Assembly (NCBI GenBank): GCA_902728285.1
Contig: CACVBU010001357.1
Coordinates: forward strand, 114,719 to 178,718
Source: Clytia hemisphaerica
Taxonomy: Eukaryota > Cnidaria > Hydrozoa > Leptothecata > Clytiidae
Reading direction: 5' to 3'
DNA: 64,000 nt
Shown: positions 14,101 to 44,846 of the stretch, one piece after another
How positions within the stretch are numbered: the stretch's first letter is position 1
How the letters are laid out: each line of letters starts with the position of its first letter
Notes under the pieces: generated by a model
Database searches by the model: none
Seen by the model: the letters and a program-made list of their open reading frames with translations, nothing else
Told to the model about the DNA's origin: nothing
Position numbers and translations under genes: made by a program

Positions 14101-17100
14101 CATTAACAACAACAAAACCCATCGCTCCAGAAAATGTGTTAAAAGTGATACGTTGCAAATGCAAGTCGACAAAACGTCAGTGTGAGACAAATGTTTGCAC
14201 ATGTCGTAAGCATGGGATCAGGTGTATGACTGCTTGTGGTGGATGTCATGGTGAAACGTGTAACAACAAGATGGTTAGTATTCTATGAAACGACTTAATT
14301 GCGTTCACAATGATAAGTACATATACTATCGTTGTGTTAATATTTGTTAATATTTGTTCTTAATCTTTACTTCAATAGGACCAACAACCCGTACAGGACG
14401 ATGGAGTCGACGTAAACGAGGAAAGACAACCTGACACAGACACTGCTGAAAGCTATAATGATTCGATTCTAGAACGTAACATCTTTGACGATTTTAACAC
14501 CAAAATTGACGTGACTTGAAACAATAAGACGGTTAGTAAATTTCTATCTAACAAGTTATGAAACAAGTTAAATTAATCTCTGTGAAAAAAGTTCATTGAT
14601 GCTGTATAAATTTAAGTCACCTTAATCTAATACCCTATTTTGATTTTTACTTTTAACAGGACAACCCACTTACCTCAAAGCTCGCAATCGATGCTTCAGA
14701 ACGCTTATTAAAAGAGCAGCAGCCACGATGATAAGACACATGGATGGATATAATATTTTTTATAAAACTTTTGTTCTATGCTCTTATCATTTTAACTTGT
14801 AATTATATGATGAATAAAAATGGAACTTAAAAAAGCTCATTCTATAATCTAAAATGCTTTTAACTACTATTATTTACCATGAGTTGTGTAGAAACATTTG
14901 ATGTGGTAATATAAGTGCTCCAGAATTTGGAAAAGGCAGAAATGTGTCCAATTAATAAGCACTTTTTTGAATTTTTGAATTTTTCACTACTGTGTTCCAA
15001 CCATTTTTGAAGTCTCCAGGCTGTCCCAAAGTCTTAGCCTCGTTTTGGCGAAAAACTCGTCCCCAGGCCCCAAAAATCAAAATTTTGAAAAAATGAAAAA
15101 ATTGCTCCTAGATACTCACCCAAGGAATAAGTCTGTCAAATTTCAGCCAAATCCGACAATTTTTGAAGTCTCCAGGCTGTCCCAAAGTTTTAGCCTCGTT
15201 TTGGCGAAAAACTCGTCCCCAGGCCCCAAAAATCAAAATTTTTTGAAAAATTGAAAAAACAACCCCAAATATTTACCCAAAGATTAAGTGTGCCAAATTT
15301 CAGCCAAATCCAACCATTTTTGAAGTCTCTAGGCTGCCCCAAAGTTTTGAAGTTGAAAAAATTGTATTCTATTTTCCACTTTTTTGCATTTTTCACTACT
15401 GTGGCTGCCATTATGGATTTGGAGGTGTTCCCAACCTCCTGGAGGTGGCGATTTTTTTTTGGTGATTCCTGACATGTTCCTGGACCTCTGTGCAAAATTT
15501 TATCTTTACACCATTTTTTTCCAGGTTTTGGTGGGTTTTGACCTAATTCTACCTGATTATATTATACAAGTAACAGTCTAATTTCTATACAGGTATCACA
15601 GATGAGGAGCGCAACCCTCCTAAAATTTCTCTACAAAAGATCCACTCAAAATAATCATCATTTTCCAAAAACTACAGTCTGCCTGGAAATGTCGGGAATA
15701 AAAACTCCGCGCAAATAATGGTTTTTCATTTTTCATAGTGATCACTCATATACTCATAAATGTCATTCCTCTACTTTTTCGCATTTATAGTTGGTCAGAA
15801 ATATCCAGAAGGGATTACAACAGAAGAACGTGATGCGACCGCAATGGGAGAACATAAACCTGATCTCCCTGTAGCGCCTGGTACGTTGTAGATTTAAACT
15901 TTTGGATCATTTGATGTATATTTTGTTGGCTCTAAAGTATAAGATCCGCACGTCAGAACATCCCAAGTCGTCTTTTGAGTTTTAGCGAGAAAAACAACAA
16001 TATTCGGATAGAAGGTTTTTTTAAATGATGGAGTAATATAATGTGCTCATTTTCCCATTTTTCAGGCCAAGAGCGCGTTTTCTTTGGTGGTAACGGGGAG
16101 CCAGGTCAAAGCGGTATGCCAAACACTGCCACACCAGAACAAAGGAATTTCGAAGGTCCTCCTGGCGCTGATATTCCACCAATGTCTAGCCCTGAGGCCT
16201 CACAACCGGACCCAAATCCGACGCAAAATGCACCAAATACAGCTACAAGTGCCAGTGGTGGTATCAACCCGGTAGCTGGGGAGCTTAGCAATGCTCTAGC
16301 TGAGAATAAAGTTTCTCCTGAAGAAGCGCTACAGATGATGAATGATTTCGTGTCTGGCAACCAGGATATGAACAAAGCTGCCAAAAATATTGAAGGTAAG
16401 TGAAAGAAGAGTTAGGTATACAAATTCGTGAACATTCTGTCACAAGTTGGGTCTGCTGGCCTTCGTTGGCCCCCTTCAAAAACGTTTCAAAATTCAATCT
16501 ACTTTCAAACCAATCGGATGCTGTCACGCCCCACGAAATGTTACGGATCCTAAGTTTTAGCCTGCTAGATTATCTAGAATAAAAGGGCAGGTCAGGCTCA
16601 GCGAGTTTGTCGAGATCAAACATTCTTTCAAAAATACTTCTGAATTTAAGAAGATCACCTGTGTTCAGAACAAATAATAAACAAATAATCATCAAATTTT
16701 CCTTTAAGGCATGCTTGGTCAAATCGCTCATACTCGACATCACGCACCAGGAGCGGCCGAAGGTGCCAGTGCCTCAGCACCGTCCTCGTTGACGCCAGAG
16801 CATCCATTACTTCAACCTCCAGCAGATGTCGCTTCTCCACTCAATGATGACACTCATAAGTTTGTTTCCAATCCAAACGACATTGCAGGTCTTAACACGG
16901 GATTCAGTGACCCAAACTTGGCCATGGGATTCCATAAAGGTTCGCCAGAGCTAGCACCAGGTAATTTTAGACTTAACAATCTTGTTGTTTTCGTTTTGTT
17001 TTGATCTACATGAGGTGGATGTTAATGTGAGATTCCTTGATCCATTTTTATCGACATAAAGAAAATGAGTCTTCTCACGGCTTTAGAAGAAGATCGAAGC

Positions 17101-23054: not shown

Positions 23055-26000
23055 CTAAAAGATGCTCAATTTCTTGGACTGGTTTTTCATGTACACTTTG
23101 TTTTGAAGTGATTTTTCAACTTGACGTAATTTCTCAATTTCCTTCTCCGTTTCATCAATGTTGTATTTCAGAGTACGCGAAATACTCGTCTCCCTGCCCA
23201 AATGAAAAGATGACAAAAATTGTAGTTACTTCAAACTGATGGGGTGTATTGGACTGTTACCAGAGTGACCTAATACTAGCTATCAATCAGGTGTTTCTTT
23301 AGTGGGTTTATTTCTAGTGGATCTAGATAGATCGATGACTGCAGTAATTTGGGTACCATAATACTCGTGACCAAGGTTGGTGGACGATAAATCAGTGTAC
23401 TTGGGAGTACTTTGGGTAAAGATAGACCAAGGGCAGTTCGCAAGGTGGACGGCGGACTAACGAGACTCTAAGGTCCCGAATAACGTAGAGACGCACTAGT
23501 AAAATTCAATTATGATCAATTTATCTTCAAATTAAGATGTGAAAGATATACACTTTGTATAGCAGAAAGGCTGATAAATATACAGTACGACAACCACGTA
23601 TTTGACGTCATCATAAGTTTTTAGTCAGGGGAAAAGCAAAAAGCCGTCGCAGGCGAATCATCAAAATTAATCCACCTTAAAGTATCTTACCTTAATCAAT
23701 AATCTAATGAATGTTTCAGAACTTCTGTTACAGATTATGGCGGAGATAATGCTATTAAGAATGATCGATCCTTAATAGAAATTTACGTCTAATATCATAA
23801 GTAGTATGGAATCCCATTCAAAATTGTCGAAAATATTTTTGTGTCTACACTACTAGACTGGTTCAAGCACACTAAACTAAAAAAGTCAACGGATTGAACC
23901 CAAGCATACTAAAGTATATACTAAAGATAATGACTTTTGAAAGTAACTGGTAAATTAGAATTGTGTGATTCCCCGTTAAAGCTTTCTCATCCTTAGAGGT
24001 CGGTTGTTTTTCAATTCCCTATTCAGTTCAACATAAATTATGGATTTTCAAGTGTGGGAACTTTCTTCATAAAATTTAAAAAATAGTCGAAAATATTCCA
24101 ACTCGAACGGGAATTCTAATTCGCTCGAATTACAACACGATTCGAATTATAGAAAGTATTTTACGAGGTTTTCCCTAGGGGCTGAGAATTAGTTCGAATT
24201 ATAGAAAGATTTGAACAATAGAAGATCGGATTAGCGAGTCAACTGTAATTTGTATAAAGAAAAAAAGTTTCCAATTATTGTTTTTGTCAAGCATATTATT
24301 TTGAGCAGTTTTGGTAAAGTATTCAATTTAGCTTAAAAAGGATTAAAGTGAAACACATCCTTTATCCATTCCAAAATTCGTTAAAAATCCATCAAGCCAA
24401 GACAATTCAAGAAAAAAACAAAAATATGTTTCAGAGGCGGTTCAGAGAATGACCCCTGTTGAAAACAATCTACAAAGCAAGGTTAAAGAAACGCCCTTAA
24501 AGGAAGGGCGTTGATTGATATAAATTATTTGGATTTTGATCAAGTCAACCAGACACAATAAAGATGGCAAGCTTAGTAGAGAGTGTCCGTGAAATTTTAT
24601 CGGTATCGCAGAAAACTCGATATGATTCATTCTCCGATCGATACAATCGCATTTTCATGGTGAAGGTGATGATCGTTGGGACTTTGTTCTTGGGTTTTAA
24701 TTGGTACGCAGATAAGATTCACTGCATGGTCTCACCTGACGTCAAATTATCGTATGATTTCGTGTCGGAAGCCTGCTGGACGCAAGGCTTCTACATTTAC
24801 CCCTCCATATTACCAGAAAAAGATACCGTCGCTTATTACGGTATACCGACAAACCTGGACAATGACGGCCGATATGCTAGCAACGGCAAATTCTGCGTCG
24901 CCAGCCCGACCAGAGGGAATTCAAAGGATGAAGAATGCGTGCCAATGAAGAAACGATTTTTTCTGCAATATCAATACATGCCTTTCTTCGTTGCTGCTCT
25001 TGGATTATTCTTCTATCTACCTTACGTTATCTTCAAGCTGGTCAACACAGATCTGGTGCTCCTCAAATCTGACATCAAATCCATGCAAGATGCTGATAAA
25101 ATCCTACAAGCATATTTCTGTCGTACCTCACAGAATCATCTCAATCAAATGCGTGCCAAAGTCATCGCCAACTATCTGATCAAGATGCTATATATTTTTT
25201 CCAATTTGTCAGCTTTCTTCCTGGTTAATGAGATTTTCGATGGGCGTTTCATTGCTTATGGAGTGTCGTGGTCAAACTGGCAAAACATGGCTAACGAAGT
25301 GGCGTATGATTATATGGGAAGGAGAGAACAACCACGCCCTGGTAATATTGTCATGCCAACCTTCGGTATATGTGAGGTGAGGTTTAATATTACTTTAATT
25401 ATGTCTACTGACCAAATTGAGATCTAGGCCTCATCGTCTAGAAGATTATGAGAGATTGAAAAGGAACTAACCTAAAAACTCGCCTTTAAACAAAGCTAAT
25501 GAAATTAGAAAATGTCGCAGAAATAGGGAAATCAGAAAAAACTAATGAGAAAATCTTGAGAAAATCCCGAAAAACAGCTTTTTTCAGGATATTTCCAGGT
25601 TTGGCAAGGTTGTGCAACTTATCAGAAAATCCGCCATTACGGAATAAAATATTCTACCGAGTGTACCACAAAAAAGGTTAAGACAAATTTGTCAACTTAT
25701 ACAAACATCAAAGAAATGAATCTTTCGCATTTGAAAGATTAACTTGAATTTTAATGGTATTTTAACAAATTTGGCCTAGTAGATAAAAAGTTATGATCAA
25801 ATTAATAAAAATTTGTTTTCAGAAAGTGCTCAAAAATCGGCACATTAAACTTATTTGCAAACCAAACCGCACTTTCATTCAAAAGCTCATCATAATTTTT
25901 TTTGACCAAATTTAGTGAATGACCTTGCAATCTTAAAGTGTATCTTCCTTCCTTCTAATGCAAAAAAAAACATAACATTCTTCCTTACATTTCATAGAAC

Positions 26001-29000
26001 TTTTGAAAATTGAATCCAAAGTGTTTAACTTTGTTACGTTAATTAGGGTAACCTTCCATTATAATGCCGCAAAAAAAAAATCATTTCCAAAAACGAAATA
26101 TTTTTCAACTTTTACTAATTCAACTTTTAGATCCATGAAGGAGCGAGAGATTTCCGAGCCACAATCACCAATAAACATAAATTCATTTGCGAATACAGTC
26201 AACACGTGTTTTACCACTACATATTGGCTTTGTTGTGGTTCGCGTTCATGACTGGACTTTTCATATCTACTGCAGGATGGGTGTACGCGACGGTCGAATT
26301 TCTGTACGTCAAAACTAGGTTCTGTCAACAGGTAAAGTAGTCAATCTACAAATATTCCTAAGGGTATATAATAGAGTGGAGTCTCTTTAATTCGGGCATC
26401 TATAACAGTTGAGCAAGTTTCATGGCCCCTTCAGTTAGAACTGCCTTATACCCAATAACGCGAAATTTCAATAACTTGAATAGATTTGTGTTCCTTGTGC
26501 GTTGTATGACATATTTTTCACATAAAGATATCACTATTTACTGTGTATCATGTTCGCAAAACATTCCATAAGAAGCTACTTGGAAGAGCCTAGAACAACG
26601 ATAGCCAATCGAGCTGAAATCTGATCTAAACATTTTTAACGAGTAGAATATGATTTACGCCAAGACTGAACTGTCTGATTGAACGCCGGATATCCCAAAC
26701 CATCTGATTATCCAATTAAATCTACTTTTTCAATCTCCATCAACAGGCTGGGTTTGATCGAAGGATCAGTGAGTGGCTATCATACCGTGAGTACGAATAT
26801 CTCAAAATCATCAGACGAAAACACATTGGGATCTACTACCAAATCATTGATCGGTTACAAGAACAAAAGAGAGGTGGTTCCCTTCAAAATCCACGGCAGC
26901 CGATTGGAGAAGGTACTTTAGATAGGAAAGCCTTTCAACAAAAGAATTATGAAAAACAAAATGGTTATGTGTGAAAGTAGGAGCCAAGCTACGGTTTATG
27001 TTTGTGATGCAAAAAGAACATTGTTAAAAAATTATCTTTTCAATTTCAAACGTTCTAATCCAGTTTACCAGATGATGCTAGAGACCACTGACCTATGAAT
27101 AACCCTGGAAACAGTTTCTCAATACTAGCCAATTAAAATCTTTGATTGACCGTTTAAAAAATGAGGCTATAGCTTCTGTAAGATCAGCCCAAAAGATTCA
27201 TATAGCTCTCGGAAAGATTTATTTCGAACGAACCGCTAATATTTTGAATTCTGTCAGGACCGATCAGGAAAAGAATAAACTGTATACCAGGAAAATTTAC
27301 CACATTGTATATAATAATTATGTTTCGAAACCCTATAAAAAGTAATACGAATGACGTGTGCATATTTATGTTAATTTATGATTAACGCTTGATCCAGTCG
27401 TGTAATTATCTATTAATTTATTCCGTAATTATAATTATGTAAGATAATCTCTTTGGTTTTTGGAAATCGAGTTCCTCATTTTATTGTCTCGTGCGATGAC
27501 GAAAACAACTCCTTTAGTAGAGCTTCCTGGTTTTTCAAAATAGAATTCATATTACCTCAAACCCATACTTAACCTTTCCAGTGCGCATTTTTTTTAATTT
27601 TCACGATATCAGCGCGCAACATTTTTTCGGAAAGTAGACATGCTCGGTTATTTTGTCATAACTCAAGAACTAGAAATCTTTAGAAAAAAAGTAAGGTATC
27701 CCTGAAAAAGCTAACTAAATTCTATAACTTTTAGAACAAGTATCAATCCAAATAAAATATTCTAACAAAAATGGTAGCTTCACGTAAACCAAAGCTTTTT
27801 TCACATTTTCCGGTAATGTCACTTTTTTTTACATTTTTCACATCTAATGTAAAAAAAAGTTTATTAAAAACATTGCATCATCATATATCAACGGAAAGCT
27901 TAGAATCTCTACTTTTCGTTTCTCTTTATTTTGTAAGTAACGCTAATGGGAGAAATATAGCTTAAAAGATAGCATGGTTAAAATACGACTAAACACGTCA
28001 CTCGGAACCGAAAGGTAAAGTATATCCCTAATTTTGAGTATACACGCAAAGATTTTTACTTCAGTAATATCATATGATGCATATTTTGAACCTGGCAGCG
28101 TAGAAAAAATGCTTCACCAAAGGAATAGTCCTTTTTGATCTCCTCTCTCTAACATACACGTCTTCTGAAAAGAACAAACTATACAAGAACATAAGACTCA
28201 TGGCTAAAATATTATGAAAGAGTTAAGAACATTTCAAGGCTTTGCGGACTCTAGAGCAATAAATTGTTTAGAGAAATAAACAAAATACTCCTATACTAAC
28301 CATTCAAAAATTTTGGGACGTTCTTATAGAAAAGGAACGTATACAGGAATAAATAAGGTTGTCGATTAATTTCCTGCTCGTGATATAAAATGTCCGAATC
28401 ACTGAAACTCTTTTGCCATTTGGAACGAGCTTTGATTGGTAGGAAATGTGAACAAAATGAAGTCTGTCAATTTTGTGAACGCTCATTTTGGAAGATCAAA
28501 AAAACATTGACTACAAGGAACCATTCCATTTTATATCCATACAGGAGGGTGGACGAACATTTCCAGATGGTAATCCAAGTAAAATTTCCGGGGGGTGTTT
28601 TTTCATTCTTCCAAGGGGGTAAGTTACTCGAAAATTTTCAGGGGGTAAAAGACTGGACCCCCACTTTAAGGTATGAAAAGAATTTTTCCAAGAGTATTTT
28701 TGCAAATTTTGCCATTTTCCAGACATACATTTTCAATATTTTTTTTTTGACTTGAAGAGGTTCGTCCACCGCCCTGCATGGTTTTTTAATGGAACAGCCC
28801 AATTTGTAACAATACAGCTAAAATGAAAAGACGCAATAAATCTTGCAGCAGACAGAGGTTAGACAGAGGTCACGAGTAGTACTTGTTCATGAGGTTTGTA
28901 CGCGTTATTTTGATGTGAGCAAATGAACCATTATCTTAACTGATGAGGTATGTTAATATAAAAATGCAGCATAACTTGAGGTCGTCAAAAGACAACGTCA

Positions 29001-32000
29001 AATTAGAATGACGTTTTAGAAAGTTGTATATTTTCTATAATCGTGCATATTTAAAGTTTGGCATTTAAATAAGAGACAGTTTAAAAGGGAAATTAGTTTC
29101 AACCACATTTACATTACGGTCTATTGTACTGTAACGTCACTCTTTATGTAACGAAAGTACTTCAAGAAATCAGATTTTTATCAAAATACACCAAAGAACA
29201 ATAACAAGTCAAACTCCTCTTCAGGAGACAGTTACTTGTAGTTGGAATCTTATTACCCTCCCTACCGTCCAAAGGTGCGACGCTGGGTGACGGCTAGTTG
29301 TTACTAAAAGTAATTACCACTGGTTCCCAACTGATATCTACGCCCTTTTTGATTGGTGAGAGTTCTGAAAGAGGTGTAGACTCCCGGGGAAGAAAAACAA
29401 AAATCCCTCTTTGACCAAACCAGGATCCTTTTCATGGAGGACCCCGTAAAAGGTTGCGATAAAATCTATATTGTCTTTGTCCTTAACCGTTTTACCATGA
29501 AAAAATTTCCTTCAAATAGGCTAAAAAGCTGTTTGAAGGTTGGGAAAATATATGGAAAGTTTGAAACATAGAACTTGACAAATAAACAAAATTTTCTAAC
29601 AATCGTGGATAATCGTTATTGATTTAGGAGAGCTTTTAAAAAAGATTTTTGAATGTTTAAGAAAACTGCAGCCTTTGGAAAATCTGGTATTTAAAACAAT
29701 CCTCAGACCATCTCTATTAACATTCTGCCTGTTCTGCTTTCATACTAATAGGCATCACAAAGTCTCTAAACAAGGTCTTTCGCAGTAGAGTCTCTACAAC
29801 TCGAACACGCAAGGGGGCACAAATTTGTCCGATATTGTTAACTGATGGCACGAGAAAAGTTGTTCGAGTTAGAGAGACATTCATGTTATGGAGGTTCGAA
29901 TCGAGCTAAAGAGACTCCACTGTAATATGAAATAAAATGAAAACGGTCTAATAAAGCATACCCTGGGTTGCGTTTAAAATGAAAACGGTTTAATAAAGCA
30001 TACCCTGGGTTGCGTTTAAGATGAAAACTACTGTCTAATAAAGCATACCCTGGGTTGCGTTTAAAATGAAAACGGTCTAATAAAGCATACCCTGGGTTGC
30101 GTTTAAAATGAAAACGGTTTAATAAAGCATACCCTGGGTTGCGTTTAAGATGAAAACTACTGTCTAATAAAGCATACCCTGGGTTGCGTTTAAAATGAAA
30201 ACAGTTTAATAAAGCATACCCTGGGTTGCGTTTAAAATGAAAACGGTCTAATAAAACATACCCTGCGTTGCGTAAAATGAAAACGGTCTAATAAAACATA
30301 CCCTGGGTTGCGTAAAATGAAAACGGTCTAATAAAACATACCCTGGGTTGCGTTTAAAATGAAAACGGTCTAATAAAGCACACCCTGGGTTGCGTTTAAG
30401 ATGAAAACGGTCTAATAAAGCATACCCTGGGTTGCGTTTAAAATGAAAACGGTCTAATAAAGCATACCCTGGGTTGCGTTTAAAATGAAAACGGTCTAAT
30501 AAAGCATACCCTGGGTTGCGTTTAAGATGAAAACTGTCTAATAAAGCATACCCTGGGTTGCGTTTAAAATGAAAACAGTTTAATAAAGCATACCCTGTGT
30601 TGCGTTTAAAATGAAAACGGTTTAATAAAGCATACCCTGGGTTGCGTTTAAAATGAAAACGGTTTAATAAAGCATACCCTGGGTTGCGTTTAAGATGAAA
30701 ACAGTTTAATAAAGCATACCCTGGGTTGCGTTTAAGATGAAAACGGTCTAATAAAGCACACCCTGGGTTGCGTTTAAGATGAAAACAGTTTAATAAAGCA
30801 TACCCTGGGTTGCGTTTAAGATGAAAACAGTTTAATAAAGCATACCCTGGGTTGCGTTTAAAATGAAAACGGTCTAATAAAACATACCCTGGGTTGCGTA
30901 AAATGAAAACGGTCTAATAAAACATACCCTGGGTTGCGTTTAAAATGAAAACGGTCTAATAAAGCACACCCTGGGTTGCGTTTAAGATGAAAACAGTTTA
31001 ATAAAGCATACCCTGGGTTGCGTTTAAGATGAAAACAGTTTAATAAAGCATACCCTGGGTTGCGTTTAAAATGAAAACGGTTTAATAAAGCATACCCTGG
31101 GTTGCGTTTAAAATGAAAACGGTTTAATAAAGCATACCCTGGGTTGCGTTTAAAATGAAAACGGTCTAATAAAGCATACCCTGGGTTGCGTTTAAAATGA
31201 AAACGGTCTAATAAAGCATACCCTGGGTTGCGTTTAAATGAAAACGGTCTAATAAAGCATACCCTGGGTTGCGTTTAAGATGAAAACTGTCTAATAAAGC
31301 ATACCCTGGGTTGCGTTTAAAATGAAAACAGTTTAATAAAGCATACCCTGTGTTGCGTTTAAAATGAAAACGGTTTAATAAAGCATACCCTGGGTTGCGT
31401 TTAAAATGAAAACGGTTTAATAAAGCATACCTTGGGTTGCGTTTAAGATGAAAACAGTTTAATAAAGCATACCCTGGGTTGCGTTTAAGATGAAAACGGT
31501 CTAATAAAGCACACCCTGGGTTGCGTTTAAGATGAAAACAGTTTAATAAAGCATACCCTGGGTTGCGTTTAAGATGAAAACAGTTTAATAAAGCATACCC
31601 TGGGTTGCGTTTAAAATGAAAACGGTCTAATAAAACATACCCTGGGTTGCGTAAAATGAAAACGGTCTAATAAAACATACCCTGGGTTGCGTTTAAAATG
31701 AAAACGGTCTAATAAAGCACACCCTGGGTTGCGTTTAAGATGAAAACAGTTTAATAAAGCATACCCTGGGTTGCGTTTAAGATGAAAACAGTTTAATAAA
31801 GCATACCCTGGGTTGCGTTTAAAATGAAAACGGTTTAATAAAGCATACCCTGGGTTGCGTTTAAAATGAAAACGGTTTAATAAAGCATACCCTGGGTTGC
31901 GTTTAAAATGAAAACGGTCTAATAAAGCATACCCTGGGTTGCGTTTAAAATGAAAACGGTCTAATAAAGCATACCCTGGGTTGCGTTTAAAATGAAAACG

Positions 32001-35000
32001 GTCTAATAAAGCATACCCTGGGTTGCGTTTAAGATGAAAACTGTCTAATAAAGCATACCCTGGGTTGCGTTTAAAATGAAAACGGTCTAATAAAGCATAC
32101 CCTGGGTTGCGTTTTAGATGAAAACGGTCTAATAAAGCATACCCTGGGTTGCGTTTAAGAGAATCCTTCAATTTGGTCAGCTTTTTGTTCAGTGTTGAAA
32201 TCTTTTCGCTGTTTTTGAAAATTTGGATGTTGACATCCGAAGATGCTCCTTTTGATTGTTTGTTCTGCGTTTGTTTGCCTGTAGAAAGAATATCAAGCTT
32301 ATATTTTACGGTTGAATCAGGAATCACAATAGAATTATATTCAATGTTTTCTTAGTAGTGAAGTGGATATAGAATGTCCAGAGACATTGGTAAGCGCTCA
32401 TTTCAACGAAAAATCAAAAAAGTAACTCAGGGGTCCCATTTAGCAGGAAGCCATAAAAAGCTTCTAGGATAAGAACGCAAAAACTAGTGGATACGCAGAT
32501 AGCATAGGACATTGAAGTCTCAATTGAACTACCTCTTGAAGAGCCTTGGCCAGTGGTATCTTTCTGTTTAGATCTGTGTTGCTTCATTGACTGGTAAGTT
32601 TCTTCGATACTTGAACGTGTGTTGACATGGAAGTGCGACGAAGACGATCCTGTTTTGGAAGTTTTCATTAGATAGGAAATTAGATTTTCATGAAGAAACT
32701 AGATAACCTTGAGACATATCAGATTCAACTGATATCCAAATTTACAAGGAAGATTTCAAAATTACCACTTGTCTTTTGATTGAACGGATCAGAGTGAGAT
32801 CGAGGGCAAATGTTAGATAACAAAAGTGTAGCCGCATTGACATAGGTTGACAGTGGCAATATTTTGCATCTATTTATCTGCACAGCCTGGATTGTCAATT
32901 AGGGCAATCAGCGACGCTAGAGGTGACCTCACTATACGTGATCGAGTGGAACTCGAACCGACAACCTTGCCAGCGACTATGTGGCGAATCCAAAAATTCC
33001 AAATTCATGACAGAGAATGTTGCCAATTCCAAATTCATGACAGAGAATGTTGCCATCATCCCAAACGCCCAATATGATAAGATTCAAGATCGGGCTGAAG
33101 ATATTTTTAGCCGTACCTGTTTTTCCCTTTCGGTTAGTCAACCCATCAATCAAATCAAAAGTGGCTCGTTCTTTTTCCTAATGAGAAAAGGAACACGATG
33201 AAGTTCAATAAAATTGGTAATGGCATTTAAACCAGGATCAAACATTTAAGATTCAGTCCTGTACCTAGTTATATATAAAGAACGCTTAAAATGTTCAACG
33301 CTTTTCAATTAAGTCAATTTAACAACATGTAAATAAAACTTGGCGAGTACCTCAACAAACACAAAATAACTGGAAATGTAATCTTGTTTCAGCGTCAAGA
33401 AAAAAGCTGTATCTAGTCAAGGCTCTACAAAATTACTTACTTCCTTATTTTTGGTACGTATTTCAGCGGCAATTTGTTTCTTTACGCTTTGATTTTTCCT
33501 CTTGGTTGGGTCTTTGATATATCCTTTCTCACGAAGTTCAGCGATTTTGTCTAAACTTTTACCTATGAAAGGAAAGAAGAGATCTAGAGAATACTGGAAC
33601 TGTATGGTTAAAGATTTCAGAAAGAATTGGTATTTCAAGCACTTCAAGTATAGAGATTCTAGACATTCAGGTATCTAAATATAAAGTATTGCCGTATAAA
33701 AATATTGCTGAAAACTTGATAAAGATCTGTAAAGATCGTAATATCGTTCGAAGAAAATGTGTTTTATGTTTTGATTATAAAAATATCAAATGTGCAATAA
33801 TTACCTGGTGGTAGCAATCGAATTTCGACAGGCTCGATGCGTCCTTCACTATCTTTGCCCAGTCCTTTGCTAAAATGATTGAAGCAGTCAGTCAAAAAAA
33901 AACATGAAAAACAGAACAAACAACAACTAAACAACACAAAAAACAGTTTCCAAAAAGGGTCCTTCTCAATTCATTCACGTATAATTCATTTATCTTAGAT
34001 ATTACATTTTCATATCACAAAGACTGCGGAAATCAAGAATTAAGCATGGGTAGAATGAGAAAGTAAAGGCTCACGTTTACAGCCGCCCCAAGTAAAGTTG
34101 CCAAAGATAAGTTTATTTAACATCGAAAAAGTTTCACTGATAACAATTTCAAAATACTTACCCAAAAATGTAACCCATTTTGGCGAGAAGCTTTGAACCG
34201 ATTCCCTAAAAGAAAAGAAAACCATATATAACATTGATTTAAAGAATATTTTGTCTACTTTCTTTATATTTTATTACTTCATTACCTCTAAGACATTTTA
34301 TTTATAACAACGTCCGAAATTTTCGAGGCTTTTGGATGTTTTTTATGAACTTCAAGTCTAAAAATGTTCTAATAATGTTTTTATTTTCACTATTTTCACT
34401 ATTTTGTGAGCGTTCAGAGTCCGTGAAGCCTTAAAATGTTCTGAACATTTTGGTAACTAAGTCTTATGTTCTTACAGTTTCTTCTTATGAACAGGACAAG
34501 GATTTAGTCTCATAGAGAAGGCAATAAAATCTGAATAAGAAACCTTTGTGTATTGTTCCCATTCTCCTAAGGGATCTTCTCAAAAATATAATCGATTTTC
34601 GATTATTAAGTTCGATTAATGATTCGACTATTTAATCGAATAGCTGCCGTCGTTTAGTCGAATAGGTTCGACTATTTAATCTCCTATATTCGATTATTTA
34701 ATCTCCTTTATTCGATTATTTAATCCTTGTATTCGATTAATTAATCCTTTTTTGCTTATATCTTAGGGATCCTCTCAAAAATACCGAATTTTGGTAAAAT
34801 GGTTTTCGGTTAAACTCGGCTGTTTGTTTTGGACAATTTTCCCACCCATCGCAAGTGAAAGAGGATAAAAAATGCTAAAAAATGATATATAAAAAAGTAC
34901 AGGTTGTAATCCAATTTTCATCGATATTTTTGCCTTGAAGTTATATCTTTTTTCAACGTCAATTTTAACTTCACGTTTCAATGGAAGCGCAATTTCGAAA

Positions 35001-38000
35001 AAGAAATCCCTTTATTTTACAAATCACCGACACATATCTACTCATTCTCTTTAGCATTTTTTACCTCCAAAATAAATAAAACTTACTGGTTATCCTTGGG
35101 AGTTTTTGATATCCAAAAATGAATCACCATTAATAAAAACAAAGTTTAGATAAATAAAGGCTCCCATCGAAAACTGAATTTCGAAGGGAGGAAAGTCTGT
35201 AGTGAAAACTGAAGCAAACAAAGCATTCCATTTCCATACATACATACCTCTTACAACCATATCTCAATGTAATAAATTTTATAACTTTCTGTTTCAAAGT
35301 CTTTTCAAAAATACAAAATATGAATAAAATCACAATATTTTAGGTTTAAAAAATTTTTAGAAAATGTTTTCTTCTCAAAACCAAACTCACAAATGAATTC
35401 AATGTTTTGATTGCCACATTTTCGAATCTTTCGAATGCGTGACGCAATTTGATTGGCAAAAAATAGAACTCGCGTGAAAAACAATGCAACGACTTCATTT
35501 TTTAGATGAGAAAAAGTGCAACAACATCAATAATTCTGCGCGATGATTCGATCTCTTATCTAGCCATTAAAAAAAACCTGGATGTAAAATTCGAATCCAT
35601 TTTTGCAAACAGAATAATAGAGCATGACGTAACTTGTAAGAAAAAAATGTTGCATTGACCAATCAAAATGCCATGATTGACGTTTGCGAACAGAACAATA
35701 GAGCAAAAGATTGTTTTCTTCCTGCTTTTATATGACGTAATGACGTATTCTTGATCTTGTGAGTGCTCTCCCTTTTATCCTTTTATCTTTTGTTTTGCCC
35801 TTTTTGATTTGAACATGAACACAGCGATGGAGTGCTATTTTCGAATCGAAAAACAATAACAAAGACATAAGAAGCAACTGTGTTGAGAGGAATTCCGTGT
35901 TGAGAGGTTGATCACAGAGAAAAAGTGTGTGGAAATTAAAAAGATAGAAAAAGATAGAAGTACTTTATCGTGGAGAGATCGTGGAATTGTTATCCAAACA
36001 TTAAGAAACTTAAAGATGATGCGATAATGTGATTCACAAAAGGATTATTTTATCATTTCATAATTTATGATGCCCCTTGGTAGATCAAAAATCCTTAAAG
36101 GTAAGAAGAATTATGCAGTCATTGGTTGATTTGACTACGGCTTTTTGAAAATATTTTTTTCTTCTGTCTTTCAAATCCACAGTAGACAAAGGCTTGTTTG
36201 TGCTGTTTTCGATCTACGTAAGAAAAAATAACCGATATTCGACTATCTTTTGGAAAAAATTCGATTATATTTTGGAATCAAAAGGATTAATTAATCGAAT
36301 CATAAAATTAAATAGTCGAACCGAGGGGACTAAATAATCGAACTGAGGGGACTAAATAATCGAACTGAGGTGACTAAATAATCGAATTTCGATTGTTAAA
36401 TAATCGAAGTACTTCGATTATTTAAGCGAATTTTTCGCTTAAATTCGATTATTTAAGCGAATTTATTTTTGAGAAGATCCCTAAAGGACCGGTCATTGAA
36501 GATGTCTTGTAAGATAATTGAACAAAACTTTCCCCGTCACCAGTCTCCTCGTTATCACTTTCACTTTCGTTTTCAGAGTTCGTTTCTGGTGAGCTGCTTT
36601 CCTCTAAAGTAAAACAAAATTAAAAGTTCTCTCGTATTTAGATGGTTTAACAAAATCTTGTTTAAATCTCATATAAAGAGACATGAAATTTTTAGGTCTC
36701 GATCTTTTTAACAAAGGTCATTCGCTCATTCACTACTTCTTTGATAGTGCATTTTATCACAATGTAAAAATGAACGTAAAAGACCTTATTCAATTTCAAT
36801 GTGAGAGCGTATATAAACAATACTTGAAAATAACCGAAATTTGAAAGATACGTCATAAATCGTTAAGTAAAATGGGTCTTAAACCCTATTTCCTTTCATC
36901 CAGAAATAGAAGTCAGTAATTTTGAAACTCTTAACCAAAACACCAAGAATGTGGTCCAGCCTATATCGTCCCTAGCCTATAAGCCAAATCCCAGGCTATG
37001 GATATCATACCCCTGCATATTATTTCACAAATTTCCAAATCCTCCACCAAAATATTACGAACCCTTTGTAAAAAGGGGGCACACCATCTCAACCAGATTT
37101 AAAACATTATAAACAAAGTAACATAGCAGCATACCGAGAGGAACGATTTCATGATAGTCCACAGTTTTGGATTCATTCTTTGTATCGAAGCTCACAGTCA
37201 CTTCGTCTTCATTCATATCACTGGAATGATAAAAAGGAATAGGTCATTTCATAGTCACAAAGCGTAATAGGTAATCAGGACCACTGTGCGCTTATGACGA
37301 TTTACTTTTGGTCCAAAGTTAAAAGATTAAAAGATTTTTGCGCCTAGCCAGCCTGAAATCGTTACTATAGCACAACCAGTCCTGATTACCCATGATTCAT
37401 TTCGACAGTGATCTTTTTGGAAAACCCATGAGCATTTGTTACTCTACTTCATCCTTGTTATATACACAATAAAGAACTTAAAAGTCAATGTAGATTTGTG
37501 TTCAACAAAAAACACAGAGTATCAAAAGTGTTGTTCGATGTTTACACGGTTGTCGTTTCATAGTTTGTTTATAATATATTTAAACATCGAATGCTTGTTG
37601 TTAAGAAAATGATCCCTTCCAAATAAAAACTTCTTCCAAACAAAGGGAAACTTGAGAGGTTTACTTATTACTTTCATGCAAAGGCGTCGTAAACTGGAGT
37701 GAAATAAAATTGAGAAAAATACACGTTTTTTTCGAGGCTGATCTTGAATTTGATGAAATCAAAAACTTTTTCGTACTCGATTTTGGCTTTATACCACACT
37801 CCATCGTGGAATTTTGCCAGACAGGGTTCACCAACATACAGTTTCCTATAACACGAATGAAATTGTAAATAACATTTGGTATTATCGAATAATTTACATT
37901 TTGAAGGTAATCTGAAACCTCGCTATCGCCTAATCAAGTCCAAAAAAGATCAAAATCTTTAGATAACTTTATATTACCTCATATATGATTACCTGTAGAA

Positions 38001-41000
38001 TATTCAAGCCAGATATAGAATCAGGTTCTAAATTCGATTTTTTGAAAAAAGAATTTGCATCGCTTAGTGAAGTCTAGCAGTGATAGTGTAAACGATGAGA
38101 GTTGCTTGCACATAATAATCATAATAGCTAAGCCTTACGTAAAATCAGGTTCTTTATATTCTTGCAGCTCGTCAGTAGGTACTAGAAAGCCATGCGAAAA
38201 TCTAAAAGAAATATGGCAGTTGACTAGTTTAAAAATCATTGAAGGTCGTATCTCTACTTTTTCTTTCAAAGTTCTTTAATCTTATTGATAATTCAAGTCA
38301 GAATTGTCTTTCCATCAGCTTATAACTTAAAAAAAAAAAAATATTAAAAATAGCGAAGTATTCAAATACTTTTGAGGCAGACTTTAAATGAAGCTTCTCA
38401 GAGAAGACCATTTTTCATTCCCAAATTCTCAAATTTGAAGATTTCACAGAAGCGTGAGACTATATTTCGTTCCTTAAAATACACAAACCTGCAGTCGTCA
38501 TCAGCATAATTACATTTACCATCCAAATAAAATTTGCATGTCACCATTGACTTATGAATGGGATTCAAAAACAAAACACGTGCCTAAAATATAATATAAA
38601 TATCCCTCGAAAGCAATCACACAATGTCTTACAGCCAGGGGGTAAAAAAATGTATAAAAATTTCTAAAAACATCATTAAAACTGAATAAATCAATCCTTT
38701 CATACATCTTGAGTAATAGATTTAATAACAGAAGCTGCTTTTGGTTCATTTTGAAATTTATTCTTATTTTAAACGTTTCGGCCATGAAAACTGATATCAT
38801 GAGGGAAAAATCCCTCAAAAACGGATATTTATGAGGCTGAAGATTTGTAAACATCGATCAACTGAAATCGCTGTGGATGGAAAAGAGACTCGTCAATTGA
38901 GTGCCTGATGGAAGAAAACTAGTAGTAATGTTTTAGGAACATTCTAAAATAGATTTTTACCATCAAATTTGGAACTTCATCCTTTAGGATTTCTTCTTCA
39001 TTAGTGAGATTGACTGGCTTCTCTTCTATACACATCAACATAACATTGTGAAATTGAAAAGTTCCCCATTCCTGTATAAAAAGGTAGAGTGCAGAGTGTG
39101 AAAATATTTGGAATCTGACATTCAGCTTTTGATGAATATTTCTGTCCAACTTAGAAGCTTTACAGCTTATTCCAATATTCTTAGACTTAAAAAAAACACA
39201 AAATATACAAAGAGTAATCAACCTGTGTATATTTGACTCTGTATTTTTGACATATTATATCTTCACTTTCATTGTGTTCTTCATTTACTTCTGTTGGCTA
39301 GTGAAAAAAATAGAAGATAAATAAGTTTTGATTCGTCAAGCACCAAACCAAAACATATCTTTATGTTTATATTTTAAAGGGAACATTATATTGGTTAGTT
39401 GACTGGTCTTACTACAATTAGAATTAATTACGTCATATTTCCACAGTCATTAGATACGAACATAATAATGTTATTGAGATTGATGTCTCATAAAATCATC
39501 ATCTTCTATTCAATCTAACTAGCATTGTCAAATGAAATGAAAATTCTTGAAATTAAAATCAAACTTTCACCTCTGTATTTTCTCTCTTGGAATTTTCATC
39601 AAAGGCTTTTGTATTTGAATCATTTTGTAAAGGGTATTTATTTATATCTTCACAGACTTTGAGTAAAGACTCTTTCTTGAGTGTCAGAAGTTGTTCTAAA
39701 ATGTATATACAGTAATGATGTTATGACTTGTAACAACGTTTAGATAGAAAAAAGGGCAATTCAGATTTTCAGTGGTGAAGAACTAGGAACTCTTCCCACA
39801 ACTCGAGTGTGAATAGGAAATATCTCATTATACTATTTTAGGTAAAAGTGACTTAAGCATCAGCGACTAAATTAAATGGGATACAGGGATACATGATCTT
39901 ATAAAAGGGTAAAGTCATGATAAATTGATAATAACCCAGCAATACCTTACCTTGAGTAACAGATATCAACTCTTTCAGATCTTTTTCCAAATCATACAAT
40001 TCTAATTTGGTCAACTCGTCTGCTGTCGGAAGTATTCCCCCAATTTGCTCAAGCTTGAAATGAAAACACAAAAATAAATATTACTAGAAGAATCGAGAGA
40101 AATTTTTCAGTTGAGTACACAGCGGCATTTTCTCTTTCATAAACTCAGTATTTTTAACAACACAAATGAGCCAACATAACTGCAGCAGAGACTGTGACAA
40201 ATGAAATTTCACTGTTAGCCTACTTTTTTGATTTTTTGTTGTTTATTTTCAAAATTACTGAAGCGGATTGGATAGAGAACCTGCCTCAAAACCTCCCACC
40301 GCCCCAATACAGATTACCAGCGTGTAATTTGCCTTGCAGGTGACGTCATCACAAGTGTTATGTCGAAGCCAAAATAGTTGTGTTCTACGAAGAAGCTCCA
40401 AATTCCTGAGTGTACAGGAGCACAAAATCAAAAATTCAAAATGGCGGCCAAGGCCAGGCTGCCAATTACGAAAATCTCCATTTTCTAACCAGCTGGTTAA
40501 GTCCAAGAAATGGTTTGAAAAAAAAACGAACCTTGAAACTATCAAGAAATTCATTGGAAGTGATGGTTACATTTCAAAATAAAAACATTTCCAACCCAAC
40601 GTAAAGGCAGTATCTGCCAACTAAACCAGATCTCACTACGGGGTCACTTCAAACTATAGATTCCAACTCTAGTATAGGCTGTGATTAAACTGCAAAATAA
40701 ACTGTATTTAAACTACTTTCCAAGTAGAACCTTAACTTGAGAAAATGACATTACCATCTAGTACCACCACAGTAACCTGAGATCAGATTGTGGTTGTTTT
40801 CTGCCCACCACACTGGAGTTCTAAAGAGATGGCTGAAGACATAACAATCTGACGAATATGTGATCTCGAAATCGTACCGTGAAATTGGGTAACTTGCATC
40901 AGTGGAGGCTAACATGCATAGCCCTCAAATGAAAGACCTGGCTGGTCATTAAAATACAAAATTAAATCAAAACAAATGGTAGAGTAGGGCTGCAAGCAAA

Positions 41001-44000
41001 GCTGCGTAGTTGTATTTTAATGACCAGCCAGGTCTGTCATTTGAGGGCTATGCACGTTAGCCTCCACTGATGCAAGTTACCCAATCTCACGGTAAGGACC
41101 GCATTCGTAAGGACTGGGGATGACAACAAAGTTGCGTGATTGAGTTTCAGAATGTGCCTTAGGCTCGAAAAAAGCAGACAGGAGGTCTGGGGCCTTGTAA
41201 ACAGCCCAACCAACTGGTCCAGGACAGTCCTGGTGTGGTCTACGGGGCAAAGCCCCAAGAAAATTATGCCTTTTTGCGGAATTAAGTGCTATAATATCAA
41301 ATATTTGAAGACATTTTTCACTCATTTACCTTTTTCCATATCAGATTTTATTTTTCATAAAGATTGAGTTCCAAAACTCAATTAAAGATTCAGAAACCCC
41401 GTATCAGTTTTTGACTTTCTGGCGCACAACAAGATTCTTGTTGTGAAATTTTGCCTGAGAGGACTATTTTCCGAGGACGTTTGATTTTCAAGCGCACCTT
41501 CATAGGTTTACCATGCGCGTAAGAAAATTATAAACAGCTGTTATCAGGTTACACCACAGGGGTTCTGTTTTTTAAAATAAACTTGCAAATAAAATTGTTA
41601 ATCCATGGTCAGTTTATAAAGTTATACTAAAAAAATCACCATGTAAAATACATAACTAAAAGTTTCATGCTGCATGTGCAATCATCAGATACATCTGTTC
41701 AAACAGCTGTTCATAATTTTCTTACGTGCATGGTAAACCTCTGAAGGCGCTTGAAAATTAAAAAACATCTGAGGAAAATAGTTCTTTTATTACTTTAAAT
41801 AGCACTTGAAATTAAGAAATTATACCGGGATGAAAGTCTAAAATGTGCAACGCGAGACACACAAGACATACAAGAAAGTGTTCAAAACAGATGATATGGT
41901 AGGTTTTTATATTTTGAAAAAAGAATAAAATAATGTTCCATTTTTGGTCACCAACCCACCAACCCATTTTTTCTAGTTTCTAGGACACAAACCAAACAAT
42001 CAATAGGGGCCGGCCCAGGTTATATCAAGTTGTTTTAATTAAGCATTAAAGAATTTACTTTAAAAGGCTCACAAACCACCCCCTCAAAATTTTTTGCGTA
42101 TATGGCAGGCTTGGGCTGCTTTCGGTGGCAGTTTTCTATTCCCTTTTGGTGCAGCTTTGCAGTTAGGAACATTTGGCGAGTTCTTGTATGCGGCCGCAAT
42201 CAAAAAAATCATAACAACACTCATTAAAAAATGGCATTTGTGTCTTTTCTCACATTTTTTAGCCTAGAAGATGTAGCAAACAAAGTAAGTATAAGCACAC
42301 TGTGCTTTTAATTGGCTGAAATTTTTTTTCGCGTTGGAAAAACTTTTTCAAACTTTCAGCAATGATTGACCAAACTGTTATAATGAAAATTATCCAGCAC
42401 ATTCTTTATCTTCTAAACCTTCTTCAATTTCAATGAAGCACTCAAAGTTTACTGAAGGTAAGCACATAAGATGTGTTCGTTGTGCGCTGAGGTGGAGTGC
42501 GTGACGTAACTCGCGCAGCAACTAACTCTCCTTCTGTTGAGTTGGAAGATCATATTGGGCAGGGCTCGAAATAACGGTCGGACATCGAACATTGTCCGAC
42601 CCAAATGGCTTCATGTCCGACCCAAAAATCATAATTTTCAAGCTAAAGCAACCCTGATCGGACATTTTGTCCGACCCACTTGAAATTGTTATTTCGAGCC
42701 TTCTTGGGTGTTTTGGCGTTATCACCCTTGAAGCAGCGGGCGCCTGAACACAGTCAAAAATTGTGTGACATTTTTGGAAAGTCAAAAAATTGCTCTTTTT
42801 GGTAAATTTAGAATAACATCATAAATAATCATTTTTAGGCTTTGAAATTTTACACCCAGGGTCGATGTCTTAGCAATGTATTGTCATAAATTTTTTCGGA
42901 AGATTTTTGAATTTTAAAGATTCTGATTTCTTCTACTTCTAATAATCCATCTTGAGATGTGATTTAGTTTATGATTTGATGTTATAGTCATGCAAAACAA
43001 ATAATATTGATCTTTGATTAATAGCCTTATTAGCTTTAGCTTAACACAGGATTACAGTGAAAATGGTGCTTTTCTACAAGAGTAACCTTAAATATACAAC
43101 CTTTTTGTTTATCAGTCATAATTTTCATGATGAATTTAGCTTCTATTACCTTTATCAAACCAATTCCCAACAAAATATCCACTTTTTTTGAAGCCAATTA
43201 GATGATAAAGGGGTTTATGAAAATTGTGAATTGGTAACCACAATTTAGCCCCAAAAATACAGCTTATAAGAAATCCAAATTAGTTTTTGCTTAGAATGAG
43301 GCCTACTTGAGGCATATTTAAATTTTGAGCAATTTTGCTTCAGTAGGTATTGATTTATAAGCTTTAGAATGAGGTAACCTCATTTGGGTAACCTCACGTT
43401 AACCACAACATATTTCTAAGTATTACTCAGGATTGAAGTAACCTCTTAAATTCGTGTTTCTTCTAAAACAACGAGAAATTTCTATACTTGAGTTCTTCAA
43501 AGTTTTGATATGGTAACCTCAAAATTCCACCAGATATGGTATCAGATATGACAGAAGGTAGAAATGTCACAAAACCCCCCTTTATTTTTGACTGTGTTCG
43601 CCTCTGTCTTTCTGCAACTCTTTCCACCATTTTAGATGGCCTTAAAAATAGATCCAAAAGGGCGCCATAATCTTGGAAGATAATTTGTTTTGGTCTCCGG
43701 CTTTGGGAAGTAGCAATGTTTTTGGTTGTTTTCGATGGGAAATAGTAAGAAACTTATATTATTTACAAGTTTCATTTAGTTTGTGCTGGCTTCTTATATA
43801 GAATGGCAGGATCCTGGATGGTTTGCCTAACTGCTTTTGGCTATGCCAAATACGCCTCCGGCGCAACATTTTCCTCCTTTCCAGACACGACCCTGCCGGT
43901 ACACCCGACAGTCGGGTGTTGTCGGTTGTTTTGTCGGGTGCTGTCTGAAATTTCTAAATTTGCAAAAACACCCGACAAGCGCACCCAACAGTCGGGTGCT

Positions 44001-44846
44001 AAAATTCCTAACTTTGTTACATGTCGGGTGCTGTTAAAAGCTCCCAAGATAAAAAAAAGTCCGAAAAATGGCGATTTCGATGATGTCAGCATTATTAGTG
44101 ACAGTAAAGAATTAAAACGTCGACCAGTCAGGCACATCCTGGCAAATGAACGGGGTGAGCATTTGCATGGGGTATTCGTCACCCAGTGTAAATGAGATAG
44201 GACGTCTCAGGCTAAAAGCGTGAAAATGAATAAAAATGAACTTCAAACTGAAAAAGGGAAAAAAGGAAGAAAACTGGGAACTTTATTTTTTCGTTAAAAG
44301 TTTCTTCAATCTTCGAAGCCAAAATTGACCCATGGAAAAAAAATTTCATCTATGCAGTTCTTTGAAATGAAGCAAAATATTTCCAACCCGGTTCAATTAA
44401 ACTGGGTATTCGGCGCTATTACGTCACTTTCGTTTTCGACCCCGTTCATTTGCCAATGGTCGCAAGTGAAAAATACCCCGTTCATTTGCCAGGATGTGCC
44501 TGACTGTCGACCAGCTCATCGTGTAGCCCTGATCATAGGTCTGTAGGTTTTCAGCAGAAAAGTATACATATGGTCGGGTGTTCAAATTTCTATCTTCAAA
44601 CACCCGACATCTAACTTCAAACACCCGACAACAGCACCCGACTGTCGGATGCACCGGCAGGGTCGTTTCCAGACTGGTAAATGGCCCACTATATCTGACT
44701 ATTATACTGTCCAACAAACTTTTTTTCAGTAGAAAGCCTGTATCACGAAGCTACATAGCCCCTGTTATATGGGCAATAATACTTACTTGTTCTTGGTAGG
44801 CAAGAATAGCTGCTTCAAGTGAAGCCTCGTTTGTTTCTGATTCCAT
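23055..44846 (-). CDS. ZGPAT: ZGPAT homologue (CCCH zinc finger and G-patch protein), 17 exons, exon 10 split by a transposon
   Basis: Exons in transcript order: 44787-44846, 39951-40053, 39571-39695, 39223-39297, 38961-39071, 38489-38583, 38139-38201, 37777-37845, 37135-37220, 36603-36482 joined to 34567-34544 (interrupted), 34162-34205, 33805-33869, 33441-33562, 33117-33177, 32533-32649, 32143-32278, 23055-23193. All phases agree; with the insertion disregarded the length is 538 residues, against 531 in human ZGPAT as I recall. Seen: N-terminal helix (MESETNEASLEAAILAYQEQ), CCCH finger C174-C182-C189-H193, Tudor-like segment about 210-260 (CLAKFHDGVWYKAKI), acidic stretch, G-patch about 312-341 (GIGSKLLAKMGYIFGKGLG), FDLIDGL, and a C-terminal coiled coil to KKLSIF. 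ZGPAT is a nuclear protein linked to transcriptional repression and splicing. As assembled, translation into the element stops early and loses the G-patch unless it is spliced out. Confidence 0.88.
23194..24563. other. ZGPAT last intron, upstream of the nested innexin
   Basis: No exon seen. A worn pogo/Tigger-like MITE lies at about 24090-24252, recognised by repeated TTCGAATTATAGAAAG-type motifs and an end reading RC of CAGTTGACTCGCTAATCCGA. Confidence 0.4.
24564..26974 (+). CDS. Innexin gap-junction protein (3 exons), nested in a ZGPAT intron
   Basis: Exons 24564-25376, 26131-26331 and 26747-26974, all phase 0, give 413 residues. Innexin features: N-terminal RYDSFSDRYNRIFM before TM1 (about 31-50), extracellular-loop cysteines C54 and C71, a conserved Pro at the start of TM2 (YQYMPFFVAALG, about 137-160), TM3 at about 203-225, then GICE and KFICE cysteines of the second loop and TM4 (exon 2, WFAFMTGLFISTAGW). 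Innexins form intercellular channels at the plasma membrane; among cnidarians they are characteristic of hydrozoans. The stop at 26972-26974 gives a normal family length. The gene lies wholly within intron 16 of ZGPAT on the opposite strand. A possible extra 3' exon at about 27118 does not fit the phase. Confidence 0.9.
27118..27345 (+). other. Coding-like open stretch downstream of innexin
   Basis: Open frame of 75 codons, starting after AACAG at 27117 and ending at TAA 27343-27345, rich in Lys/Ile/Arg (SLIDRLKNEAIASVRSAQK...). Family unknown. It would need an incoming phase of 0, whereas the nearest donor after innexin exon 3 (GT at 26912) leaves phase 1. It could be an exon of an alternative transcript or chance. 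Confidence 0.25.
28156..28343. mobile_element. MITE of the ACACG/GTTCTTATA family
   Basis: The left end TACACGTCTTCTGAAAAGAAC continues ACAAACTATACAAGAACATAAGACT, and the right end is GACGTTCTTATAGAAAAGGAACGTA. It is diverged from the copy at 62209-62453. Confidence 0.55.
28524..28794. mobile_element. MITE with about 35-bp TIR (GGTGGACGAAC family)
   Basis: The two ends share TTCCATT and CCAT(A/G)CAGG(A/G)(G/C)GGTGGACGAAC in inverted orientation. The interior has G-runs and T-runs and no gene. Target duplication is unclear. Confidence 0.6.
28795..29782. other. ZGPAT intron 16, no gene seen
   Basis: AT-rich intronic DNA without recognisable exons or repeats. Confidence 0.35.
29783..29922. mobile_element. 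pogo/Tigger-type MITE abutting the minisatellite
   Basis: The ends CAGTAGAGTCTCT and AGAGACTCCACTG are inverted, with internal CTCGAA / TTCGAA blocks. It ends 12 bp before the 42-bp array begins. Confidence 0.6.
29935..32142 (-). repeat. 42-bp minisatellite array (about 53 units), each with a 5' splice site of ZGPAT exon 16
   Basis: Units on the - strand read CGCAACCCAGGGTATGCTTT then ATTAGACCGTTTTCATTTTAAA. Period is 42 bp, with a few 40-bp variants lacking two bases. The first unit is the end of ZGPAT exon 16 (donor GT at 32142-32141). Translation gives KRNPGYALLDRFHF per unit, open in frame for about 13 units until a 40-bp unit shifts the frame near 31650. A higher-order repeat of 752 bp is visible (about 30480-31231 and 31232-31983). 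Confidence 0.92.
32996..33053. repeat. 28-bp direct duplication
   Basis: Two adjacent copies of a segment containing CCAAATTCATGACAGAGAAT lie in a ZGPAT intron, next to exon 14. Confidence 0.7.
34293..34497. mobile_element. MITE of the ACACG/GTTCTTATA family
   Basis: Inverted orientation relative to 2262. It starts near AACGTCCGAAATTTTCGAGGC and ends TTATGTTCTTACAGTTTC. It lies in ZGPAT intron 10, about 47 bp from the 3' end of exon 10. Confidence 0.5.
34571..36481. mobile_element. PIF/Harbinger-like non-autonomous element inserted in ZGPAT coding exon 10
   Basis: 1,911 bp with terminal inverted repeats GGGATCTTCTCAAAAATA, flanked by TAA at 34568-34570 and 36482-36484. TWA target duplications and TIRs starting GGG are typical of PIF/Harbinger. 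Subterminal arrays of TTCGATTATTTAATC-type motifs face each other at both ends. No transposase is recognised in the interior. A second TIR-like copy (GGGATCCTCTCAAAAATA, preceded by TTA) lies at 34766-34783. Confidence 0.88.
40054..40876. other. ZGPAT intron 1 (proximal part)
   Basis: No exon seen. About 40255-40560 is more GC-rich than its surroundings and looks repeat-derived, with a CRE-like GTGACGTCATC. I cannot assign it to a family. Confidence 0.3.
40877..41092. mobile_element. TA-flanked foldback MITE, copy 1
   Basis: Near-perfect inverted arms of about 85 bp start CCGTGAAATTGGGTAAC and CCGTGAGATTGGGTAAC, with TA on both sides (40875-40876, 41093-41094). The same element is at 54548-54765. 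TA duplication fits Tc1/mariner-type mobilisation. Confidence 0.85.
41459..41789. mobile_element. Foldback element with about 80-bp inverted arms
   Basis: Arms share TCAAGCGC(A)CCTTCA(T/G)AGGTTTACC and CGTAAGAAAATTAT(A/G)AACAGC in inverted orientation. Non-coding. Confidence 0.65.
42563..42700. mobile_element. Short MITE with GGCTCGAAATAAC ends
   Basis: 138 bp with 13-bp inverted ends GGCTCGAAATAAC. Internal inverted GTCCGACC / GGTCGGAC motifs recur four times. Confidence 0.65.
43878..44672. mobile_element. Inverted-repeat element rich in CACCCGAC palindromes
   Basis: The ends share ACGACCCTGCCGGT in inverted orientation, followed by multiple CACCCGAC / GTCGGGTG motifs. A second internal inverted pair contains CAGGCACATCCTGGCAAATG. 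No gene inside. Confidence 0.65.

Follow-up and report, generated by a model that had tools for sequence, protein, structure and literature searches.

Minisatellites that repeat a splice donor have already been described in the human genes IFI6 and ABCA7. The former, also named 6-16 or G1P3, reportedly carries about 26 copies of a 12-bp unit. The IFI6 array was described by Turri, Cuin and Porter (1995, Nucleic Acids Research (NAR) 23:1854, cited in PMC4526556, PMC2572611 and PMC2915984), and two of its units farther downstream are also used as donors, which results in three mRNA species (PMC4526556). In the intron-18 variable number tandem repeat (VNTR) of ABCA7, a 25-bp unit present in about 12 to 427 copies in people, the first GT is the exon's own donor; an isoform retaining one unit accounts for 2 ± 1%, unaffected by array length, while longer arrays are associated with lower expression and with the next exon being skipped more often (Acta Neuropathol. 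2018, PMC5954066). A tandem duplication across an intron/exon boundary that carried the splice signals along is furthermore described for intron gain in potato RdRp (PMC4974935). Here we report a related array from the hydrozoan Clytia hemisphaerica, in which a minisatellite of 53 units repeats the predicted 5' splice site of exon 16 of a ZGPAT orthologue. It lies within a stretch of 64,000 nucleotides, hereafter the window, whose positions are used throughout (assembly GCA_902728285.1, contig CACVBU010001357.1, positions 114,719 to 178,718 of the forward strand).

Like the IFI6 array, the array in ZGPAT is a splice-donor minisatellite repeating the donor of its exon, but it consists of 53 copies of a 42-bp unit, resides in another gene and is known here from sequence alone. 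The likeness to ABCA7 lies in its position, as both arrays directly flank an exon and begin with the native donor as their first GT. They differ in that retention of one 25-bp unit shifts the frame in ABCA7, and in that the ABCA7 array starts at the GT (PMC5954066), whereas the ZGPAT units include 18 bp of exon. Skipping of the next exon as in ABCA7 is impossible in the same way in ZGPAT because our model has no coding exon beyond exon 17. The potato RdRp case was a single duplication that made a new intron, whereas ZGPAT carries its 5' junction 53 times with no new intron shown. A paper on DDX3Y (PMC3039753) was judged irrelevant, and no ZGPAT splice-donor array was found among the matches listed for the open-licence literature (titles and abstract starts). 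The statement of the initial annotation that no such case had been described is therefore superseded by IFI6 and ABCA7; what is new in ZGPAT is the longer unit, the period being a multiple of a codon, the exonic part of the unit and the host gene, whose human product is linked with the tri-small nuclear ribonucleoprotein (tri-snRNP) and DHX15. The features of the locus are as follows.

29933..32158, minus strand: minisatellite in which a unit of mostly 42 bp, including a copy of the 5' splice site, stands 53 times in tandem (Tandem Repeats Finder (TRF), pattern scan and unit tabulation)
32141..32142, minus strand: GT dinucleotide of donor 1, which is the native splice donor of predicted exon 16, CCCAGG^GTATGC with the caret marking the exon–intron boundary (gene model and donor scoring)
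32143..32278, minus strand: predicted ZGPAT exon 16, 136 bp in length, with the exonic part of the repeat unit as its final 18 bp (hand model, boundary by eye)
23055..23193, minus strand: predicted ZGPAT exon 17, the last coding exon, with acceptor TTTGGGCAG and ending in KKLSIF and a stop (hand model)
33117..44846, minus strand: predicted ZGPAT exons 1–15 and their introns, with the CCCH finger, the region matched by PDB 4ii1 and the G-patch (hand model, profile and structure matches)
31680..32142, minus strand: in-frame part of the array, where donors 1–12 would give the full-length protein plus 0–11 extra units (frame map)
29960..31640, minus strand: donors 13–53, with the frame lost (frame map)

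TRF called the minisatellite at 29933-32158 with a period of 42, 53.1 copies and 94% matches. Anchoring on the donor likewise gave 53 units, 46 of exactly 42 bp, four of 40 bp, one of 41 bp and two of 45 bp, in agreement with the roughly 53 tandem 42-bp units first proposed. An 18-base pattern, allowing up to three mismatches, occurs at 53 places in the window, none of them outside the array or on the plus strand, and was found 0 times in each of 100 shuffles. As the initial annotation had stated, the GT is kept in all 53 units, on the minus strand in the donor context GG^GT(A/G)TG(C/T), distributed among the forms AGG^GTATGC (40 units), AGG^GTATGT (7), AGG^GTGTGC (5) and AAG^GTATGC (1). Each unit is made up of the 18-bp end of exon 16 and the first 24 bp of intron 16, according to a right-to-left match made by eye: at the junction the exon has ...GGATTCTCTTAAACGCAACCCAGG^GTATGC..., the array units ...CAT(T/C)TTAAACGCAACCCAGG GTATGC.... 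Read in the frame of exon 16, a unit encodes KRNPG, and the tail of human ZGPAT presumably carries RN-x-G at this place; the predicted C-terminus seems to agree with the RN-x-G and coiled-coil tail of the human protein. In our predicted model the array starts with the native 5' splice site of the exon, and every one of its 53 units contains a plausible donor.

The gene model, a prediction on the minus strand, was built manually on the basis of GT/AG sites and open frames and comprises 17 exons, whose joined coding sequence of 1491 nt is in phase throughout and encodes 496 amino acids followed by a stop. Residues 92–247, covering the CCCH finger and the following region, match PDB 4ii1 (E=5.2e-29), a structure with the molecule name zinc finger CCCH-type with G patch domain-containing protein that we take to be human ZGPAT, and the G-patch PF01585 was found at residues 307–348 (E=6.6e-12). 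The Pfam profile zf_CCCH_4 matched one exon open reading frame (ORF) at E=0.0018, below its curated cut-off, and was unlisted for the whole protein at E 0.001. Judged by the structure and G-patch matches the gene is a ZGPAT orthologue, as initially annotated; the human protein associates with the 35S U4/U6.U5 tri-snRNP and stimulates DHX15 (reviewed in PMC13111387). Exon 16 (end 32143) and exon 17 (start 23193) join in phase across an intron of about 8.9 kb with 496 codons open, and no other plausible donor was scored in 32100-32290, where two other GTs reached -1.0 and -6.3 versus 6.8. We therefore place the end of exon 16 at donor 1 (GT 32142-32141), which upholds both the proposed exon 16/17 junction and its location within the first unit.

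The least certain point of the model is the exon 10/11 junction (36490/34566), with a donor score of 0.73, and the modelled intron 10 donor GTCCTT is very weak. Intron 10 (34567-36489) possesses near-matching inverted ends (arms 34570-34597 and 36455-36482, 28 nt, 89% complementary) that adjoin CCTTTAGG/CCCTTAGG by eye, and it looks as if a terminal-inverted-repeat element had been inserted into an exon and then turned into an intron. Intron 16 harbours a nested innexin gene on the plus strand (24540-26974), with a PF00876 match for 24540-25424 (E=1.2e-19) and ORFs at 26131 and 26720 that by eye may be its later exons. On the minus strand, the same intron holds strong donor-like sites at 24735 (CAGGTGAGA, 11.8) and 23690 (AAGGTAAGA, 10.1), which may belong to unmodelled exons.

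Its unit composition suggests that the array was most likely born in place through tandem duplication of the junction. A 42-bp stretch across this junction, 18 bp exonic and 24 bp intronic, would have been duplicated between two short matches, the exonic TCTTA and the intronic TTTTA, and would then have expanded to 53 copies, partly via block duplication, passing the native donor on to every copy; this order of events is what we infer from the present array. Local birth is favoured over insertion of a dispersed repeat because no unit-like sequence was found outside the array within the window (best E 1.9, array masked). For the window alone, a dispersed transposon or satellite family was rejected, as its remainder holds no further unit copies. 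Written as unit types, the array reads ABCBBBDDEEFGHEEIEJDKCLBBDDEEFGHEEIEDDKCBBMFGNOPQDBQDB, with 18 of 35 units matching at an offset of 18. As the 13-unit string BBDDEEFGHEEIE at unit 5 recurs 18 units on, at unit 23, a block appears to have been duplicated later.

What each donor would yield can be read from the frame map. Each in-frame unit would lengthen the C-terminal tail at its RNPG by 14 amino acids, for which YALLDRFHFKRNPG is the consensus and variants occur. Beyond donor 12 the frame is lost because the 40-bp and 41-bp units break it, so the initial proposal of a frame-preserving extension from any donor n holds for donors 1–12 and fails for donors 13–53. Donor 13 leads to a frameshift and a stop within exon 17, donor 14 to a stop 12 nt upstream of the last junction, and donors 15–53 (39 of 53) to stops 54 to 1649 nt upstream of it; a message retaining intron 16 would stop at codon 628. 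According to the 50-nt rule established in vertebrates, stops farther upstream of the last junction mark an mRNA for decay, and by analogy mRNAs made from donors 15–53 would be marked in this way.

For the splicing behaviour of the locus we favour, as reasonably probable, that the array was born in place and that most of the mRNA stems from donor 1 and a small share from the few donors after it. The two human arrays are the best guides here, as two downstream units are used in IFI6 (PMC4526556) and retention of one unit is a small minority isoform in ABCA7 (PMC5954066). Donor 1 would then serve most transcripts and supply the 496-aa protein, minority use of donors 2 to a few would insert 14 amino acids per unit at the RNPG, and distal donors, if used, would give out-of-frame mRNA mostly destined for decay. 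Donors were scored with a matrix of approximate donor frequencies and separately by their U1 pairing energy, and folding was computed with single-strand models that ignore proteins and co-transcriptional folding. With a matrix score of 6.81, donor 1 ranks seventh of the 16 donors in the gene, the other 15 ranging from 0.65 to 11.36, and among 362 GTs in 23200-29900 only seven score as high and 355 lower; the donor of exon 9 also reads GTATGC. Several observations weigh against this reading. At a U1 pairing energy of -5.1, donor 1 is surpassed by 10 of the other 15 donors, equalled by one (exon 7) and stronger than only four, and 37 of the same 362 GTs pair as well as it does. When the fold takes in 60 nt to either side, unit 2 pairs with seven of the nine positions of donor 1 at a probability of at least 0.97 and two stay free, and the copy number is that of the assembly and may be wrong if the array was collapsed. 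Because of the middling matrix rank and the weak U1 pairing, the array donors look usable but not strong; all four donor forms score as plausible, and in the U1 scoring that the initial annotation had called for donor 1 is weak.

In the RNA, base pairing is possible between the GCAACCC of a unit and GGGTATGC, either its own or that of the unit before. In local folding, the chance of all nine donor positions being free is at most 0.0001 for donor 1 and has a median of 0.001 (largest 0.009) for the other 52, compared with 0.0001 to 0.187 for the donors of exons 1–15. The mean pairing of the exon 16 donor, 0.77, is not extreme, as exons 2, 6, 10 and 12 have higher values. Compared with shuffles, folding is better for two stretches of several units (z -2.77 and -3.44) and no better for two short stretches of 70 nt and 24 nt (z -0.43 and -0.45). 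We rejected structure as a special feature, because any near-palindrome that is repeated should outperform its shuffles.

The rival that survives best treats the array as an inert minisatellite, in which splicing uses donor 1 alone and the remaining 52 lie silent in the intron, a view we regard as unlikely without dismissing it. It agrees with the tests for selection: among the 46 units of 42 bp, 33 of the 42 columns are invariant, the chance that two given columns are both invariant is 0.61, and the donor columns, of which three of nine vary compared with six of 33 others, vary no less than the rest. Hence the invariant GT, read in the initial annotation as a sign of function, was rejected as a sign of selection. 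Selection for an open frame was likewise rejected, given that 417 of 560 42-bp windows spanning the 16 donors of the gene stay open when repeated in the exon frame, and the predicted folding of multi-unit stretches onto themselves would also suit silent units. The three kinds of donor change, all of which raise both the matrix score and U1 pairing, lean towards selection and are too few to weigh. What speaks against complete silence is the partial use of neighbouring units in IFI6 and ABCA7, together with the plausible scores of all four donor forms.

Appreciable use of several of donors 1–12, resulting in a functional ladder of C-terminal tails, would make ZGPAT a length-variable protein, which we consider improbable. 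Twelve donors giving an in-frame full-length product and a period of 14 codons are what such a ladder would need, but the frame is lost at unit 12, and the absence of the five frame-breaking units (of 53) from the first 11 has a hand-calculated chance of about 0.3, so that the intact run is nothing unusual. The sole Pfam hit on the repeat ORF, a BRK domain (E=2.5e-7), was rejected as a repeat artefact because no stretch passes alone.

Even less probable is a regulatory role, which takes up the splice-site sponge raised in the initial annotation and extends it to autoregulation: the many donors would cut productive splicing of this splicing-related gene, distal use would yield decay-prone mRNA and the level of ZGPAT would feed back on splice choice. 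The 39 donors whose stops lie at least 54 nt upstream of the last junction would fit it, as would the lower expression and increased exon skipping with longer ABCA7 arrays (PMC5954066), the link of human ZGPAT with the tri-snRNP and DHX15 (PMC13111387) and the rise of both scores with every kind of donor change. Yet the sponge received no positive evidence: the donor is seventh of 16 by matrix, 10 of 15 others are stronger by U1 pairing, donor columns vary no less than others, and neighbouring units are predicted to pair across the donors, which argues mildly against a strong sponge. The idea of autoregulation was prompted by the tri-snRNP/DHX15 link, and our data neither support nor exclude it. 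Its most elaborate form is a rheostat, in which units zip up and hide donors, the level of U1 or ZGPAT shifts use from donor 1 to donors 2–12 and on to donors 15–53, and array length sets both ZGPAT output and tail length; we rate this as very improbable.

The plus strand of the array (29933-32158) contains 53 AATAAA hexamers, the minus strand none. A role as 53 such signals for the nested innexin gene, which runs on the plus strand from 24540, is highly implausible, as AATAAA is simply part of every unit and the last innexin-like ORF recognised by eye ends at 26974, about 3 kb away. Recursive splicing, with units as ratchet points in the 8.9-kb intron, is next to negligible: CAG stands just before G^GT in the units and donor 18 (31430) reads CCCAAG^GTATGC, but 52 of 53 units have AG-G-GT instead of AG^GT and the pyrimidine tract is poor by eye.

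Apart from these features, the distal edge of the array adjoins a further element.

29780..29927, no strand assigned: diverged short element, in which pieces of 28–47 nt match 9082-9328 at 79–86% (ends by eye)

This element also has a 27-nt inverted match to 26368-26394, and a related short element at 9081-9362 consists of two tandem 141-bp copies with 98% matches. Farther away, two arrays of a 156-bp unit (10793-11359 and 14996-15348), whose consensus sequences look reverse complementary by eye, flank plus-strand ORFs at 11482-13862. The two ORFs tested, 11482-12339 and 12343-13341, gave no Pfam match, and the arrays and enclosed ORFs perhaps constitute one mobile element. No Rfam family was found in the window at the gathering threshold.

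The ZGPAT locus of C. hemisphaerica contributes a single pre-mRNA with a long row of natural 5' splice sites that are almost identical, and it illustrates how a minisatellite may arise from an exon–intron junction. Only use of the distal donors would make it surprising; if the donors are used, the array would provide a natural test of how the spliceosome chooses among dozens of equal donors.

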